DNA of 64,000 nt, taken from Peromyscus leucopus. Taxonomy: Eukaryota > Chordata > Mammalia > Rodentia > Cricetidae. Both the position numbers and the translations under genes were made by a program. A model generated the notes under the pieces. That model saw nothing but the letters and a program-made list of their open reading frames with translations. It was not told the origin of the DNA and did not search any database. Location: the NCBI RefSeq assembly GCF_004664715.2, contig NC_051068.1, positions 48,666,953 through 48,730,952 on the forward strand. The letters run 5' to 3'. Each line of letters starts with the position of its first letter. Position 1 is the first letter of the stretch. Below are positions 26,830 to 37,099 of this stretch, in pieces.

Positions 26830-27576
26830 GTCTATAAGTTCCATTATTTCTCTGTTTAGTTTCTGTCTGGATGATCTGTCCATTGGTGATAGTGGGATGT
26901 TGAAACCTCCCACTATTAGCGTGTGAGGTTCAATGTGTAACTTAAGCTTTAGTAATGTTTCCTTTTCAAGTGTGGGTTCCGTTCATTTGGGGAATAGATG
27001 TTCAGAATTGAAACATCATTTTGTTGTATTTTTTCTTTGAAGAGTATGAAATGCCCTTCTCCATCTCTTTTAATTAATTTTGGTTTGAAGTCTTAGGTAT
27101 TAGGATAGCTACACATCTTAGGTCTGTTTTGTTGGAAAAATATTTTTCCAACCCTTTACACTGAGGTAATGCCTGTCTTTGATGTTGAGGTGTGTTTCAT
27201 ATATGCAGCAGAAGGATCAATCCTGTTTATATATCCATTCTGTTAGCCTGTGTCTTTTTATTGGCAAATTGAGTCCATTGATATTGAGAGACATTAATGA
27301 CCATTGATTGTTAATTCCTGTTATTTCTTTGCTGATATTGTTGGTGGTGGTAGTGTGTGTCTCTGTGTGTTTGTTTCTCTACTATGGGTTTTGCTGGTGT
27401 GAGATTATCTATTTCCTGTGTTTTTCAGGGTGGAGTTAACTTCCTATGCCTGGAGTTTTCCTTTTAGTTCCTTTCTCATGACTGGATTTGTGGATAGATA
27501 TTGTTTAACTTTGCCTTTGTCATGAAATATCCTGTTTTATCCATTTATGGTAGTTTTACTGGGTATAGGAGTCTGG

Positions 27577-27871
27577 TGTAGTGGGTAGACATTCCAGCTT
27601 GGATCTGGAAGTTCCAACCCTCATGAAGACTCTGGCAACTGTCACACCTACAAGGCGCCTAGAGACCCGAGACCTGGATGGGCAAGTGCTCTCTCTCTGT
27701 GCCGGGACCCTGAACGGTGGAGGTTGACTGAGCAGAGCTCCAGAGAACACCACTGGACTACGATACACCTTCCCCAGACCCTGCGACCTACCTATCCCTT
27801 AATTTGTGAATTACGCCATTAAATAAATATCTTTCTAACTACGTGGAGTGGCCTTAATAATTTCTCCAATA
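27577..27871 (+). repeat. ERV-1 5' LTR
   Basis: Starts TGTAGTGGGTAGACATTCC and ends at '..ctccaata', two bases before the primer-binding site. It lacks a short 'ggggccaggggaggc' block that the 3' and the inverted copies keep, and differs from the 3' LTR at many sites, which points to an old insertion. AATAAA occurs near its end. Confidence 0.9.
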
Positions 27872-27873
27872 TC

Positions 27874-27891
27874 TGGTGCTCACATGAGGCA
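27874..27891 (+). promoter_or_regulatory. ERV-1 primer-binding site (tRNA-Lys1,2), decayed
   Basis: TGGTGCTCACATGAGGC aligns to the Lys1,2 primer site (complement of the tRNA 3' end) with C-to-T changes and one missing base. The tRNA-Lys(CUU) segment at 35709-35778 independently identifies the primer. Confidence 0.7.
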
Positions 27892-28193
27892 AATTCCAAA
27901 GGCCTGGGCGGCTCCTGCCCTCTCTTCCCTAGCTGGCGGGTACTTAAACCCACCTGCAAAGTTCCATATAACCAGGGAACGCCTACAAGGTTCCATTCCT
28001 GAAAAAGGGAGCAGCTAGTCCATCTCAGTTCCCTATCTTAGCCTAGAGACCAGCGAAAGAGGCAGGGGAGTGCTGGCTCCGATTTCCTCCATCTCCAACT
28101 CCAGCCAAGACCGCCAGCAGGCCCTGTTTTGGAACTGTACCAACGCCAACTGCTGGCTGAAAAGTGCTACTACATGCCCCCAAACCAGGAAAG

Positions 28194-28200
28194 GTAAGCA
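28194..28200 (+). promoter_or_regulatory. Candidate retroviral splice donor, ERV-1
   Basis: 'ggaaag/gtaagca' is close to the consensus donor and lies about 80 bases before the gag ATG. A donor at the same relative place is present in ERV-2. No matching acceptor is proven. Confidence 0.4.
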
Positions 28201-28275
28201 TATTGTTTCAAGTAAAGGTACTTGATAATTTTACACCTTAAAATTGACTAACAAATTTTGAGTAATTCTTGTAAT

Positions 28276-29918
28276 ATGGCCGACAACATTACCTCACAAG
28301 AATTTAAAAACCTTTTTGCCAGTATGATGAATGACATCTTCCTGGAAATCTACGACATTCCTAAGGCATATCTGGCCTGTGCCATTTTGACATTCATCAT
28401 AATAATTCACACAGTGTTTAAACACTGGTTTAAGAACAAAGATGAGTCATTATTGGGACTGATAAAGGCTTTAAAAGATAGCAATGAAGACTTACAGAAA
28501 AAGATTCTCTTCTGGAATCTGCTTTAAAAGATAGCAATGAAGGCTTACAGAAAAAGATTCTCTCTCTGGAATCTGCTAACCAGAATTTACAGGCTTTCAA
28601 AGATAGCAATGAAGGCTTACAGAAAAAGATTCTTTCTCTAGAATCTGCTAATCAAGGTTTACAAAACAGGCTTGTACCCAAAATTGATTTTATTGATAAT
28701 ACATATGAATATTTAATGGATAGAACACTAACTCTCCAGAGTGAAGTTGTGGTTACTCAGACAGTATATAAGGAAGAAAGATTATCGTTAATTGATAAGA
28801 TAAGGTCCATGGAATCATGTGTATCTGAGGAACATAAAAACTTCTATGATTCCATGAGAAATCTTGGGTCCCTTGCAAGAGAGGAGGTTCACTCCCTAGA
28901 ACAGACTCTAGGTGCTCGTTTGCAAGCCCTAGAAGAAACTCTCAGTAAACATGACAAGGGAACTAATAAGCAGAAGGTCTCCAAATGGCTCTCATACAAT
29001 GGCTTATCCTGTTATCGTCCATGAGAAGCCAGCAGATGACACACACCCTGAGCCATACATTACAACCAATTTCAACAAGGGACTTTAAAAATATAAAGGA
29101 AGCAGTAGTTATGTATGGGATACACACCACATATGTAAAACAGATGTTAAATTCGTGGTCTACCTCACACAGAATCATTTCAGATGACTGGCATCAGTTA
29201 ATTTCAGCTGTTCTAGAATATAGCCAGCAATTGCAGTGGAAAAGCTGATTGAGAGAAGAGGCAAAAAAAAATTAGAACAACAAGGTAAAATCAGAGGTTT
29301 TGGGATCTCCCAAGATCAAATACTTGGTGAGGGATGTTTTGCTGACAGGAATGTACAAGCCATTTATGATGAGCATACAATATCCCTATGCCATATGGCA
29401 GGTCTAAATGCTTGGGAAAAAATTCCAGAACCTGGGAAACCAACTGAGGTATACACAAAGATATTTCAAGGACCGCACGAACCCTTCACTGATTTTTTTT
29501 TTTACAAAGACTGAACACAGCTATAACAAGAGCTGTGTCAGACAAAGAATTAAGAAAAGTATTAACTGAGTCCTTTGTGTTTGACAATGCTAATACAGAA
29601 TACAAAAGAATACTTACACCATTAAAGATCAGATCAGCTCCTTTGGAAGAATGGATTCAATATACTAATGGTGTTCAGTCTCTTAACTACAGTAATGAGG
29701 CTTGGATAGGAGAGACAAATCACAGAGGTGAAAGAAGGCCCCGTGTTACCAAATGTTTTAAATGTGGTACACCAGGTCATATAAGTAAAAACTGTACATG
29801 GGGTACTCCTAGAAGTAATACTCCTTCTAGGAATAGCCTAAACAGGAGACCCCAACCACCTCCTGGATTATGTAGAAGATGTGGCAAAGGCCGACATTGG
29901 ACCAGTGAGTGCAGATAA
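28276..29918 (+). pseudogene. ERV-1 gag, broken
   Basis: Gag is the structural polyprotein that assembles the particle. The first ATG is at 28276; the open frame upstream of it starts with TTG. The N-terminal part has a hydrophobic segment (AYLACAILTFIIIIHTVF) at about residues 31-48, then a tandemly repeated helix-forming unit (KDSNEDLQKK and variants) at 28471-28660. Later come capsid-like sequence and two CCHC fingers, CFKCGTPGHISKNC and [14 protein letters not shown]. The frame changes near 28515, 28980, 29240 and 29515, and a stop at 29916 follows the second finger. It is non-functional. Confidence 0.88.
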
Positions 29919-32211
29919 AAAATAGATATACAAGGCAACCCTTTACTGGCATGAAATGCCTCAGGGGGCCTCTTGAAGGCCCCCAAATCAAATGTAGTAT
30001 GAACATTCCCAGCCACTGTGAAAGAAATTCCTCTCCAGGACAACTGAATAAACCAATGCCTAATGTAAAAACCAATACTGCAATGGATGATAAAACAGCT
30101 TTGATAGATGGATCACAGTTTACAAAGAACACTATAAAACAAATATTTTGGCAGACTTCCATAAATGAACAAAGACCAAAGCTTAGAATTCGAATTAATG
30201 GCCTGGTTCTGGAGGGCCTGGTAGACACAGGTGCAGATGTGACTATAATTACACCAAAATCATGGCATCTGAATTGGCATCTTCAAGAGGTAGATGTCCA
30301 ACTTTTAGGGATTGGCACCCTATCTCAGATAAAACAGAGTTCAAGATGGGTTGAATGCGTAGGGCCAGAAGGACAAAGAGGAAGGCTGAAGCCATATGTA
30401 GCAAATGTAGCAGTAAATCTTTGGGGCCGAGATCTGTTACAACAGTGGAATACCCAGATTAAAATTCCTACACTTTCAGAGAAGGAATACAGACCAATGC
30501 ATGTTTCTAGGAATAATATCATGACATGCTATAAAAATCAGTCACCATCCATTCAGGCTGTTCACAAACAGAGCATGACTGTTGTTGAACTCTCAGAAGT
30601 ACCAACTGCCTTACCTTTAAAATGGCTAACTAATAAACTTGTCTGGGTTGGACAATGGCCTTTGACAAAAGAGAAGCTGCAAGCTTTAGAGCAGCTGGTT
30701 CGAGAGCAGTTAAATGCTCAACACATTGAAGAATCTACCAGCCCTTGGAATTCTCCTGTATTTGTTATTTAAAAAAATCTGGTAATTGGAGAACGCTGAC
30801 AGATCTGAGAGCTAGTAATAAAGTAATTCAGCCAATGGGCTCTCTACAGAATGGGATGCCCTTGCCCTCTCTGCTACCCAAAGAATGGCCTATAATAGTT
30901 ATTGACTTAAAAGACTGTTTCTTTACCATACCCTTACAAGAAAATGATAGAGAAAAAATTGCCTTCACAGTACCTAATTATAATAATTCTCAGCCAGTCA
31001 AGAGATATCAATGGAAGGTCCTCCCACAGGGAATGTTAAACAGCCCTACTTTGTGCCAATACTTTGTGCAGAAACCATTAGAGATAATTCGTGTTAAGTT
31101 TCCACAATCCATAATTTATCACTATATGGATGATATCCTATTAGCTGATCCAAAGTTACATTACATTACATACATTAGAAAGCATGTTTGAAGAAGTAAA
31201 AAAAAAGTTTTGCCTTACTGGGGACTGCAAATTGCTCCTGACAAAATACAAAGAGGAGATTCTATTAATTACTTAGGATATAAGATAGAGCTTCAAAAAA
31301 TTAGACCCCAAAAGGTACAACTAAGGAGAGATAGATTGAAGACTCTTAATGATTTTCAAAAGTTATTACGAAGCATTTCCAACTTACTGGGTATCATGGG
31401 AATACCCATAGATGGACTACAAAATTTGGCTAATACTCTAGAAGGGGACAAAGAATTAAATAGTCCAAGAGAATTATCAGCTGAAGCTGAAAAGGAATTG
31501 GCTCTAGTAGAAAAGATAATTTGAGAAGCACATGTGGATCATGTGAATCCAGAACTTAAATGCATTCTTGTCATATTCCCCTCCAGACATTTCCCAAACA
31601 GGTATTTTGATGCAGAGGGAAGATATTATATTGGAATGGATAGTCCTACCATGTAAACCAAATAAGATATAGAAAAGGTCTCTGATTTGATTCAAAAGGG
31701 TAAATTAAGACTTCACCAGTTGACAGGAATTGACCCAGCAGAAACTGTAGTACCTTTAATTAATGAGGAAATTTCATCACTATGGAAAGATAATGAATAC
31801 TGGCAGAGAGCGTGCAGTAACTTTTTGGGAGATATTAACAACCACTGTCCCAAAAGCAAAAGAATAGAATTCATAAAGAAGACTGAATGGGTCGTTCCTC
31901 ACATTGTATGACAAAAGCCAATTTCTGGAGTCCTCACATTCTATACTGATGCAAATAAATCAGGGAAAGCAGGATATAAATCAGAAGACTTAAGTAAAGT
32001 GGTACAAAGTCCATACAGCTCTGTACAAAAGGTAGAACTGTATGCCATTCTTATGGTACTGATGGACATCACAGATCCCCTCAAATTAGTCACTGACTCT
32101 CAATATGCAGAGAGAGTTGTTTTACATATTGAAACTGCTGAATTTATTCCTGATAATACAGAATTAACTTCATTATTCATTCAATTGCAGGAAATGATCA
32201 GAAAAAGGGAA

Positions 32212-32258
<47 letters not shown>

Positions 32259-33111
32259 ATATTAGATCCCATATAGGTCTGCCAGGACCTCTAGCACAAG
32301 GTAATGATGAGATTGAACAGCTAGTAATAGGTAATGTGCTGGAAGCCTCAGAATGTCATAAGAAATACCATGTAAATAGCAAAGGTTTGAAGAAGGATTT
32401 CTCCATCACTTGGCAACAGGCTAAGGATATTGTGAAAAAATGTCCTACTTGTTCCATCTATAACCAAACTCCATTACCTGCAGGGAGCAATCCAAAAGGT
32501 ATACAAAGAAATGAAATTTGGCAGATGGATGTGTTTCATTTTGCAGAATATGGAAGATTAAAGTATGTACATCATACCATTGATACCTACTCAGGATTTC
32601 AATGGGCAATTCCTATGAGTTCTGAATAGGCTGATTCTGTGATTACACACCTATTAGAAGTTATGGCCATCATGGGTATACCTGTAAAAATTAAGACAGA
32701 CAATGCCCCAGCATATGTCTCCAATAAAATGAGACAATTCTTTGCTTATTACAATATAAAGCATGTTATAGGTATACCACACAATCCCACAGGCCAAACA
32801 GTCATAGAAAGATCTAATTGAACTTTAAAGGATATGCTAAATAAACAGCAACAGGTAACAATGACTCCTAGAAATAGACTGCATAGTGCTTTATTAACCT
32901 TGAATTTTCTCAATGCTGATGAGAAAGGAACAGCTGCAGAGAGACATTGGATGACAGACAAAACTCCTGAGCTAAGCCAACCGGTTTATTTCAAGGATGT
33001 GCTGACCTCAGAATGGAAACCTGGATATGTTCTACGTTTGGGAAGGGGTTTTGCCTTTGTTTCTGCAGGAGAAGAAAAGCTATGGATACCAACAAAATTA
33101 ATAAAAATTTG
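29909..33111 (+). pseudogene. ERV-1 pro-pol, broken
   Basis: Remnant of protease, reverse transcriptase, RNase H and integrase. Visible motifs: protease VDTGADVT (about 30220), [13 protein letters not shown] (about 31025) and YMDD (31123-31134), RNase H VTDSQYAERV (about 32090), integrase HHCC remnants (32355-32450) and catalytic-core text around WQMDVFHF and KTDNAP. Lesions: frame change in the A-run at about 30770, an insertion near 31155, in-frame stops at about 31522, 31909, 32627 and 32819, and a (TA)n expansion at 32216-32254. Its relation to gag is -1. Confidence 0.9.
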
Positions 33112-33149
33112 ATTTGAACAGGAAAAACCCCTTGATGAAGAGAAGTAAA

Positions 33150-35400
33150 AGATCATCCACCAATGTGACATCTCTACAAGTTGTAAGAAAAATTTAACAA
33201 ACAAAGGGTGGTGTAGGATTCTGTTTTTGTCTTCCCATGATAATGGAAATACCCATTTTCCAAAAATCATAAGGCCTTGGATATCCGGATGTTTACAGCA
33301 GAAAGAAAGAATCTATTGGTACCAATCTACACATGGTAAAATCTCACTGTCTAACATCTATCTCTCTATCAATCTAGAAAAGTTGTGGTTCAAATTCAAT
33401 TATAAGCCAAGCTGGTTTTGGAGATGGAATTGGCTCGTTCCTTCTCTAAACCCAAGCATATTGCTAAAAGGAAAGTTTGAGAGATTCTTCAGTCCCGTAT
33501 CAGAAGAGCCCTCTGGTGTGAGACAGAAGGATACCAATAAAAAGGGACCATTGTCTTCTAAATTCTAATTCTCTCCATGCTTACTCTTGATTTCTCAGAA
33601 TCCTTTCTTACATGCTATGTCCTCTTTAAATCCAAACCTTCCATTTTTGATAACAAATAAGTTTTTCTAATAGCAATCTCAGAAGTCTCCAGAAGGAAGA
33701 TGGGGCCCCAACAACAACAACTCGACCCAATCCAGAATGATGCCATGTAAATCATCATCATACTACACTTCTTGCCAGAATTTCAGACAATCTTACCCAT
33801 TACTCTAAAATTTGCCACAGAACCTACAGCTAGTCTAACTCAGATTTAACTATCTGAGGTTTCTCACAGTACCCAACAGAGATAACATCACCCCCTAAAC
33901 GGCAGGAAGCAATTCTAAGAAAACGACGTCCCTTCTCCCTTAGGTCATAATTCTCAGGGTTATAGATGGTGGTTATATGGTTGGGGGCAGAAGAAATTAT
34001 TAGACTCAGTATTCAAAAAAAAGAGGGGTATGATGGTAGATCATTGTATATACTAGTAAACAAATTTAGTAAAATAGCGACCTTAGATAATTTGCACTGT
34101 AATTTGTACTGTTATAGATTCTTATATGTTGATACAAATGTAAACTATTTTTATATTCCTGTTTAAGATAATTTGTATATTGATACAAATACAGAACTAT
34201 ATTTGTTATAATGTACATATATTTCTACTCTTATTTGAAATATTTTTATATTGATACAAATGTAAATTTATATCTGTCATACTTTATGTATGTTCTACTT
34301 CTGTTTAGGATATTGAGTATATTGATATATATTTAAGATTATTGTCATATTGCATGTCACACTATGTATTCCTACCTCTGTTATAAATATCTTGTGTATT
34401 GTCACAATTTTGAAGTCATCGTTCTTCACCATACATTTGCTTATAGACTGTTTACCTAGTTTATGTGAAGCCTCAGTCCTTAGGTTATTTCAGTAGATAA
34501 GACTTATAGATTTATAGTCACATATGCTTGTCATCTCTATAGTTACGTTAGTTAGGTTATCCAGATTTACAGATATGTAGGTCAGATGGACAGGTAATCT
34601 TCAAACACTTCATAGACCTGGAGAATATGGCATTTAAATAACTTAGAATTCTGTTGACATGAGACACAATTGCTCCTGGCTGCACCAATTTGATCCCGAG
34701 AGAATGTTGGGCTTCTAAAACATTTCCATTTGGAAGTTTGTCTTTTTGACACAAAATGGCCTACTGGGCAAAGAACGGCCCTTGCCTTGATGGCTGACAG
34801 TACAAATGCAATGCTGTCCTTTCTGGACAAGCGGGACACAAGGAAAGCAACCACTGTACTCTGCCAAGACAGGGTAAGATGATCTTTCAGAATTCCTGCT
34901 TCTGAAAATGGTCTGTCAGATACTCTAGGCCTGTAGCCAATTTGAATGCACCAACAATGCTGAGAAACATTAGGTGACTGTCTAGGCTGCCAGCTGTCTT
35001 GGTCTACTCTTGCAAGATTCCCAAAAGTTGCTTTCATCCATCTACCATTTCTCAGGTACCATTATGTTCCTTCTCAGGTCTTTGATGGGATTGAAGACTA
35101 ATGTTATAGTTAAAACTTGATATATATAATATCTTAGATAGAACATATTAATTATTAGATTCAGGTTCTTTAGGATAGGACACTTTTTGGAATGATCTTT
35201 ATAACATGCCATTTACCTATGCTCTATACTTCTCTGGATTTTAGTATGTGTTTCTTGCTTGATATTGTTTGCATTGGTTGTAGTTCCATCTTATCTAGGT
35301 CATTATCCCTCATTATTCCTGGACAGTATTTGATAACCATTCCTTTGTATAGTGTCTTTTATTAGTTTAGAACCTTCTTATTTAGACAAAAAGGGGGAGA
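33150..35400 (+). other. ERV-1 3' non-coding region, no env seen
   Basis: No envelope motifs or long frame. AT-rich blocks repeated as 'gatacaaat..aac' lie at 34080-34300. A part at 34620-35050 is shared with ERV-0, ERV-2 and the fragment at 42.5-43.5 kb. It ends in the polypurine tract 'aaaaagggggaga' just before 35401. Confidence 0.7.
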
Positions 35401-35707
35401 TGTAGTGGGTAGACATTCCAGCTTGGATCTAGAAGTTCCAACCCCCATTGAGACTTGGCAACTGTCATGCCTATGAGGCGGGGCCAGGGGAGGCGCCTGG
35501 AGACCTAAGAGCTGGATGGTCGAGCACTCTCTCTGTGCCGGGACCCTGAATGGTGTAGATGGACCGATCAGAGCTCCAGAGAACACCGCTGGACTGCAAT
35601 ACACCTTCCCCAGACCCTGAGACCTACCTATCCCTTAATTTGTGAGTTACACCATTAAATAAATATCCTTTTAACTACGTGGAGTGGTCTTAATAATTTC
35701 ACCAATA
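35401..35707 (+). repeat. ERV-1 3' LTR
   Basis: Starts TGTAGTGGG right after the polypurine tract and ends '..caccaata'. AATAAA lies at 35658-35663. Unlike a normal right end it is not followed by host DNA but by tRNA-derived sequence. Confidence 0.9.
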
Positions 35708-35708
35708 T

Positions 35709-35778
35709 CTAGCTCAGTCATTAGAGCATGAGACTCTTAATCCCAGGGTCATGGGTTCGTGCCCCACGTTGGGTGCCA
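35709..35778 (+). other. tRNA-Lys(CUU)-derived segment with CCA, fused to the LTR
   Basis: Runs from tRNA position 7 or 8 to the 3' terminus: 'tagctcagtc', anticodon loop CTCTTAA (anticodon CTT), 'gggttcgtgccccac', 'gttgggtgCCA'. The terminal CCA (35776-35778) is added after transcription and is not in tRNA genes, so a mature tRNA was copied. Its 3' 18 bases are complementary to the Lys1,2 primer site. The first six or so tRNA bases are absent. It is not a gene: there is no complete acceptor stem and it sits inside the ERV target duplication. T stands where the tRNA has A58, a methylated base. Confidence 0.92.
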
Positions 35779-35882
35779 AATATTGGTGCCTCCCCTGGCC
35801 CTGCCTTGTAGGTGAGACAGTTACCAGAGTCTCAATGGGGGTTGGAACTTCCAGAATCAAGCTGGAATGTCTACCCACTACA
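35779..35882 (-). repeat. Inverted, internally deleted ERV-1 LTR
   Basis: On the minus strand it begins TGTAGTGGGTAGACATTCC at 35882, runs through 'cagggccaggggaggc', then jumps to 'accaatatt', the U5 end, losing roughly 190 bases of the middle. On the plus strand it starts right after CCA, which is where minus-strand strong-stop DNA would start on a tRNA primer. The outer end is followed by GTCTGG. Confidence 0.92.
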
Positions 35883-37099
35883 GTCTGGTCTGGCATGCAT
35901 GGTCTCTTAGAGTCTGCAAGGCATCAGTTAGCCTCTTCTGGATCTTAGGGTCTCTGTTGAAAAGTCAGGTGTGATCCTAATAGATATGCCTCTATATATT
36001 ACTAGGTCTTTCCACTTTTAATATTCTTTATTTGTTCTGTATGTTTAGTGTTTTGATTATTATGTGGCAAGGGAACTGTCTTTTCTGTTACAATATATTT
36101 GGTGCTCTGTAAGTCTCTTATACCTTTATAGGCATGCTCCTCTTTAGTTTGGAAAATTATTTTTTATGATTTTATTAAGTATATTCTTTGGGTTTTTGTG
36201 CTGGAATTCTTCTCGTTCCTCTATTCTGATTATTCTTAAGCTTGGTCTTTTCATGCTGTTCCAGATTTCCTGAATGTTTTTGTGTTAGGAATTTTTTAGA
36301 TTTAACATTTTCTTTGAGTGATGCATCTATTTCCTTTATTGTGTCTTCAATGCCTGTGACTCTTTCTTCTGTCTTTGTATTCTTTTGGTAATACTTGCAT
36401 CTGTAGTTCCTGTTCACTTACCCAGACTTTCCATTTCCAGAATTCTCTGTTTGTGTTTTCTTTATGGCTTCTATTTCCATTTTCAGGTCTGGAACTGTTT
36501 CCTTCACTTGCTTGGTTTTTCTTGCCTTTCTTTAAGTAATTCATTGCTCTCCTCCAAATATTTGTTTGTCTTTTCCTCAATTTCTTTAAGGTACTTTTTT
36601 TTCAGGCCTTCTTTAAGGACCTCTATCATTTTCATAAAATTATTTTTAAGGCCATTTTCTTGTACTTGTCTGCTTTGGATTATTCTGGTCTTGCTGCCAC
36701 AGGATAGCTGAGTTCTGGTGGTGCCATATTGCCCTTTCTGTTATTGAATGTGTTCTTATACTGGCTTTTAGGCATTGGGTTTGAGATAATTATAGGTCTA
36801 GGTGTTGATTCCCATGATTGTCTTTATTGGATGTGTACTTTGCTTCTTGATTTTTGTTTCCTCTCTGGTCTCGCAGCCTAAGTGGCCAGGGCTTTTTGTG
36901 ATTGGTGAGTCTTCAGGTTCAGTATGGTATCTCCTCTGAGATTTTCTGATCCTACAAGATTCCCAGCATTTTGGATGCCAACATTGCCTCTGCAGTTCTA
37001 AGTGCCTGTATGACCTGTTGTGATTGCCTGCTTGACCTCTGGGATTCCTAGAAAGGTGTGGCCTCCAGTGCAGCAGAAGCTTTCTGCTATATCTGGGCA

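Follow-up and report, generated by a model that had tools for sequence, protein, structure and literature searches.

The window analyzed here is a 64,000-nucleotide (nt) stretch of the Peromyscus leucopus genome (contig NC_051068.1, forward-strand positions 48,666,953 to 48,730,952). Within it, positions 27571 to 35888 hold a provirus whose 3' side is joined to a DNA copy of a transfer RNA (tRNA) and then to an inverted arm of a long terminal repeat (LTR), the whole being enclosed by two copies of the target-site duplication GTCTGG, both read from the sequence (27571..27576 and 35883..35888). The 5' LTR (27577..27873, plus strand; delimited by alignment) belongs to the LTR family designated A here. 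It lacks 15 base pairs (bp) that are present in both the 3' LTR and the inverted arm, with the deletion adjoining short GGCG repeats, and sequence comparison places the end of its unique 5' (U5) region at ATATC, followed by TGG. Next to it is a lysine primer-binding site (27874..27890, plus strand), which comparison with the complement of the tRNA 3' end revealed to be decayed and one base shorter. A Pfam scan recovered, in separate pieces, a broken gag-pro-pol region (28970..32626, plus strand) with gag p24, zinc knuckles, protease, reverse transcriptase, reverse transcriptase thumb, ribonuclease H and the zinc and core domains of integrase. Directly before the unique 3' (U3) region of the 3' LTR the sequence displays a purine tract (35388..35400, plus strand), which by its position probably served as the plus-strand primer. 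Judged by the order of its gag-pro-pol domains, its lysine primer-binding site and its 6-bp duplication, the provirus is a class II (betaretrovirus-like) endogenous retrovirus.

The 3' LTR (35401..35709, plus strand; aligned, with its end set by comparison with the tRNA) runs into a copy of nt 7-76 of tRNA-Lys(CUU), detected with Rfam and by comparison with a tRNA reference (35709..35778, plus strand) and complete with the CCA at 35776-35778. The dinucleotide CT at 35709-35710 fits both readings of the joint, either as the end of U5 with the T that follows it or as tRNA nt 7-8. Relative to the reference, the copy differs at nt 18, 19, 41, 49, 58 and 72, with position 58 (35760..35760, plus strand) being T where the tRNA has A. 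Its Rfam score of 28.9 bits is just below the gathering score of 29, and ARAGORN, run with the bacterial code over the window, listed no tRNA gene. The CCA is immediately followed by AATATTGGTG, which corresponds in complement to the final 10 nt of U5 (35779..35788, minus strand; from the sequence and inverted repeats), and then by the complement of approximately the first 94 nt of U3 (35789..35882, minus strand; from inverted repeats and the sequence of a similar locus, L036), which terminates in CCACTACA at 35882, the U3 terminus. The GGTG at 35785-35788 is compatible with U5 and with a U3 variant found in L036. Direct reading and measurement confirmed the layout reported in an earlier note on this DNA: target-site duplication, class II provirus, 3' LTR, tRNA with CCA, inverted arm ending at the U3 terminus, and target-site duplication. 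The note had also envisaged a complete U3-R-U5 second arm (R being the repeat region between U3 and U5), and this part has to be given up: the inverted LTR is short by approximately 210 nt, comprising the rest of U3, R and most of U5, leaving only the approximately 94 nt of U3 and the last 10 nt of U5.

Both outer ends of the element are thus U3, whereas an ordinary provirus has U3 on the left and U5 on the right, and U5 sequence lies on both sides of the tRNA, unlike in a tRNA insertion with its own duplication and no LTR. The 5' and 3' LTRs are 88.0% identical (265/301 aligned bases), and the inverted arm is 87.3% identical to the 3' LTR and 86.7% identical to the 5' LTR, values similar enough for the three arms to appear of equal age. 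The GTCTGG pair taken alone is modest evidence. When the outer flanks are joined by script around a single GTCTGG, the resulting sequence can be aligned through the site with another copy of the same repeat, at locus L063 (73.6% over 614 columns; query 197-792, with the site at 400). With two U3 termini, a tRNA between them and a 6-bp duplication, the window element has all the features of a proposed U3-tRNA-inverted-U3 class.

The search pattern was the last 25 nt of tRNA-Lys(CUU), with position 58 left free. It recovered 163 exact sites in the genome and 322 at no more than one mismatch; the reversed pattern gave none in the genome at no more than one mismatch. The 18-nt tRNA end alone occurs exactly 598 times, and four of the first eight loci from this search (L003-L006) also have the tRNA body, one of which, L004, has no match to the window LTR. 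A search with the junction sequence led to L010 and L036, in both of which the tRNA is flanked by LTR arms of opposite orientation and the element by an exact 6-bp duplication (CAAGAC and GTCTAT, respectively); both were selected by likeness and stand outside all counts. The counts are based on 60 loci, namely the first 50 and the final 10 of 100 listed places, all of them exact matches, on which account the sample favors younger copies; within it, L039, L040 and L041 coincide with L003, L005 and L006. In all 60 the tRNA body continues beyond nt 58, with the copy starting at nt 1 in 21 loci and at nt 2-42 in the others. A recognized LTR U5 end follows the CCA in 58 of the 60, and these ends fall into three families: A, the family of the window (34 loci), B (12 loci) and C (12 loci). 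The 343-bp LTR of family C is reminiscent of the mys element of Peromyscus. On the far side of the tRNA lies a reversed LTR, viral leader, viral interior or other sequence, only part of which could be mapped, and 57 distinct joints are seen among the 60 loci. The window element is hence one of a large recurrent class occurring in at least three LTR families and is not a singular event. A single odd locus is ruled out by the 163 exact sites and the recurrence of the plan.

Some inverted match to the arm on the CCA side is found in 16 of the 60 loci. Two of these were dropped, L072 with a match outside the LTR and L082 with an arm that is not U3 ended, leaving 14 loci with the U3-tRNA-inverted-U3 plan and U3 termini on both sides. 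An exact 6-bp duplication encloses 11 of the 14 (L062, L064, L068, L077, L078, where it sits in a CA repeat, L084, L086, L088, L092, L094 and L097); taking each match as 1 in 4096, the chance of such a result is 7e-38. These duplications, along with that of the window, point to integrase having taken a pair of U3 ends while keeping its normal 6-bp spacing, which bears out the proposal first made for the window alone. Base 58 is T in 11 of the 14 loci and G in 3. Arm identity in the U3-ended insertions ranges from 88% (window) to 100%, which implies that the event giving rise to them could be dated. A missing middle of the inverted arm is common to the window, L010 and L084, and by eye its edges share short runs of bases, GGTG in the window and TGGGG in L084.

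In a further 16 loci the far side of the tRNA carries a copy of the LTR end in direct orientation (only 30 bp of it in L040). Exact 6-bp duplications were seen by eye in 10 of the 16 (L041, L046, L047, L054, L058, L067, L071, L072, L075 and L089), with that of L047 lying in an AT repeat and two of the ten needing the boundary moved by one base. No clear 6-bp duplication was seen by eye in L040, L043, L079 and L091, and L073 and L074 were left out of this duplication count as a tandem pair. The latter two (G000:C3:141142578-141146440) are LTR-tRNA-interior units approximately 838 bp apart with an identical joint, probably a product of unequal recombination. The remaining 30 of the 60 loci belong to neither the inverted nor the direct-copy class, and in many cases the search for a second LTR, over approximately 1.5 kilobases of sequence, was negative.

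Base 58 of the copied tRNA bears on the origin of these elements. Among the 163 exact copies it is T in 127, A in 21, G in 15 and C in none; in the 60 loci it is changed in 51 (44 T and 7 G) and A in 9. The mismatch rate over nt 1-51, two isodecoder sites excluded, is 1.4% (34/2460 bases in the 60 loci); nt 52-57 and 59-76 yield no rate, as the search pattern required exact bases there. Positions 17, 48 and 49 are mismatched in 10-15%, far under the 85% at base 58. T is the commonest base at 58 in each LTR family (27/34 in A, 6/12 in B and 9/12 in C) and in both isodecoder types, and T, G and A are all found in each of the three families. Where the tRNA 3' end is instead followed by a base other than C, position 58 is A in 3/3. 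Position 58 of primer tRNAs is 1-methyladenosine (m1A58), the base at which synthesis of plus-strand strong-stop DNA normally ends (PMC13191261), and mismatches with low C are described for reverse transcription past m1A when a G follows it (PMC4787781). The copies have the same signature, namely, an excess of change at base 58, to T and G and with no C, from which we infer that the changes probably reflect misreading of m1A58 by reverse transcriptase. The T58 of the window alone is not proof, with a likelihood ratio of approximately 27-39 under assumed divergences. Taken with the CCA and the junction to the end of U5, the position occupied by the primer, it upholds the recognition in the earlier note of this tRNA as a copy of the mature primer.

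In the window, U5 runs into the tRNA beyond nt 58, as in an extended plus-strand strong-stop DNA; all 60 loci also reach past nt 58, in 58 of them from a recognized U5 end. On the basis of these observations, we consider the likely origin, with a probability of roughly 0.8, to be read-through of the primer m1A58, followed by copying of the tRNA, a change of template and the use of two U3 ends by integrase. Reverse transcriptase would fail to stop at m1A58 during plus-strand strong-stop synthesis and copy on into the tRNA. The resulting plus strand, ending in a tRNA copy, would be unsuited to the normal second strand transfer and might pair elsewhere. At the window locus it would have paired, through the few shared bases CT, with the plus strand of a different viral DNA, namely the U5 end of a full provirus, with one strand extended on the other, and the product with U3 at both ends would then have been inserted by integrase at the usual 6-bp spacing. 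More generally, landing on minus-strand DNA may yield the LTR-tRNA-interior-LTR elements, landing on plus-strand DNA the inverted, U3-ended molecules, and landing on RNA a product of the L060 type (see below). Many mapped breakpoints are near the 3' LTR and others further inside, a distribution that could reflect minus strands being frequently short at this stage. More tentatively, the gap in the inverted arm may stem from an early jump of the minus strand from U5 to U3 at GGTG, or from later deletion or slippage in the palindrome.

The joints share 0-6 bases, sometimes with filler. In L056, L088 and L096 the joint is common, with GCCC(A/G)G shared by tRNA nt 1-6 and U3 (4-6 shared nt), while the loci lie at different genomic places and have T, T and G, respectively, at base 58; this suggests that the same small homology was probably used repeatedly. 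In L060 the tRNA copy, with A58, runs into antisense signal recognition particle (SRP) RNA reaching SRP nt 1. This stretch (L060:1541-1904, minus strand) comprises SRP (7SL) RNA from nt 1 with an internal insertion of approximately 70 nt and lies between the copied tRNA-Lys and an apparent second primer-binding site with leader. The earlier note had allowed for either a template switch or end joining; the 4-6-nt joints of the three loci and the run into SRP RNA favor template switching in these other loci. For the window itself we infer a template change at the joining step, and either reverse transcriptase or a ligase may have made the joint.

Several observations weigh against the read-through origin. 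An unchanged A58 is present in the 21 copies counted above, which implies that some primers were unmodified or were read correctly, and m1A58 in the tRNA-Lys(CUU) of this host is presumed from other primer tRNAs. The corresponding 25-mer of tRNA-Phe has one genome site at no more than one mismatch, with T58, and that of tRNA-Lys(UUU) has two, both with A58, too few in either case for a rate. Two of the 60 loci, L052 and L080, have tRNA-Lys copies with CCA and T58 and no recognized LTR after the CCA, perhaps through priming off the usual site. Three of the 14 inverted loci have no exact duplication, with agreement at 4/6 (L053), 2/6 (L056) and 0/6 (L096) bases. Several joints share just 0-2 nt, an outcome that end joining would also give, and for a template switch at the window the entire provirus would have to be copied or its completed plus strand extended.

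In the alternative that survives best, host end joining would have ligated a full provirus and a short LTR-tRNA read-through molecule tail to tail before integration. We regard this as possible, if distinctly less probable than a template change. It accords with CT being the only bases shared at the window joint, with the other joints of 0-2 nt, and with the filler seen in L077 (17 bases), L094 (1 base) and L097 (5 bases). Against it, three loci have an identical 4-6 nt in common to tRNA nt 1-6 and U3, the entry of L060 into a cellular RNA sequence requires reverse transcription, and the read-through step would still be required.

The alternative that T58 was inherited, with one or a few master elements having taken up a T58 tRNA copy and multiplied, is quite improbable. 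The joint common to L056, L088 and L096 and that shared by L073 and L074 could be seen in this light, and a further round of copying is conceivable for elements with a direct LTR copy. Against this, 57 of 60 joints are distinct, T58 is found in both isodecoder types, the 21 copies that end at tRNA nt 1 do so beside different partners, all three LTR families have T, G and A, and the trio with a shared joint itself differs at base 58. Slightly less probable still is an origin of the right end of the window element by later nested insertion, genomic rearrangement or assembly error. Although the locus is known from assembled sequence alone, and the three arms are similarly diverged, a single GTCTGG pair encloses the whole element, a second copy of the flanking repeat can be aligned with its flanks through the insertion point, and the plan is repeated in 14 of 60 other loci. 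As for a tRNA gene, or a tRNA pseudogene made by a long interspersed nuclear element, that happened to lie at an LTR, tRNA pseudogenes can carry CCA and L052 and L080 have no recognized LTR, but this is scarcely credible given that the CCA adjoins a recognized U5 end in 58 of 60 loci, that tRNA 3' ends not followed by C have A58 in 3/3, and that the duplications enclose the LTR plus the tRNA.

In the open-access literature, surveyed by titles and opening parts of abstracts and with subscription papers mostly outside it, we found no description of integrated LTR-tRNA-inverted-LTR elements or of m1A58 marks in endogenous retroviruses. The nearest known case is the circular murine leukemia virus DNA with a tRNA-Gly copy between its LTRs (Colicelli and Goff 1986, via PMC12220202). 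Like the window element, it has a reverse-transcribed primer tRNA at a viral DNA end; however, it comes from cell culture and has LTRs in ordinary order, whereas the elements described here are germline integrations with an inverted arm, U3 on both sides and the base-58 signature. Extension of plus-strand strong-stop DNA beyond position 58 has been seen in a laboratory product when m1A58 was lacking (PMC13191261). The same base is read through at the same step in both cases, but here the copies are integrated and base 58 is mostly misread. A tRNA-Gly copy beside a provirus of human immunodeficiency virus (HIV) in a cell line, for which the authors propose a separate self-primed insertion (PMC12220202), similarly adjoins the 3' LTR with its CCA and is without its first five nt; unlike the window copy, it is not of the viral primer and has no inverted LTR. 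Hairpin-induced tRNA-mediated recombination in HIV-1 (Konstantinova 2006, via PMC12220202) also patches tRNA sequence into viral DNA, but these are other tRNAs, which replace an inserted hairpin inside the genome. Patches of 7SL or other host RNA in retroviral recombinants (PMC4997597) resemble L060 in having SRP RNA inside a viral element and differ in that the host RNA of L060 adjoins a copied primer tRNA. Finally, HIV-1 proviruses with asymmetric LTRs, explained by template switching (PMC9278108), share with the window two LTR arms of unequal completeness; what is described there, however, is deletions in one LTR of an ordinary provirus, not a tRNA with an inverted arm.

These considerations make it probable that read-through of the primer has given birth to a large recurrent germline class, including palindromic elements with two U3 ends that inserted like a normal provirus. 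In such a class T or G at the m1A58 position would be a fossil record of tRNA modification, primer isodecoders and retroviral template jumping in ancestral germ cells. To our knowledge, the evidence for m1A58 as the stopping point of plus-strand synthesis comes mainly from laboratory studies of a few viruses. With 163 exact copies extending past this position and the misread base still legible in them, the errors that an ancient reverse transcriptase made opposite a modified base can be tallied across evolutionary time. Unusual LTR-tRNA and inverted-LTR annotations in other genomes might likewise trace to this class.

The single tRNA-Phe match lies at G000:C24:101088964-101088988 on the minus strand. 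At one of the sampled tRNA-Lys loci, L085, the sequence immediately upstream of the tRNA copy, in the orientation of the tRNA sense strand, is an 18-bp tandem repeat (TAGCTGAGGTCCCGCCCC).

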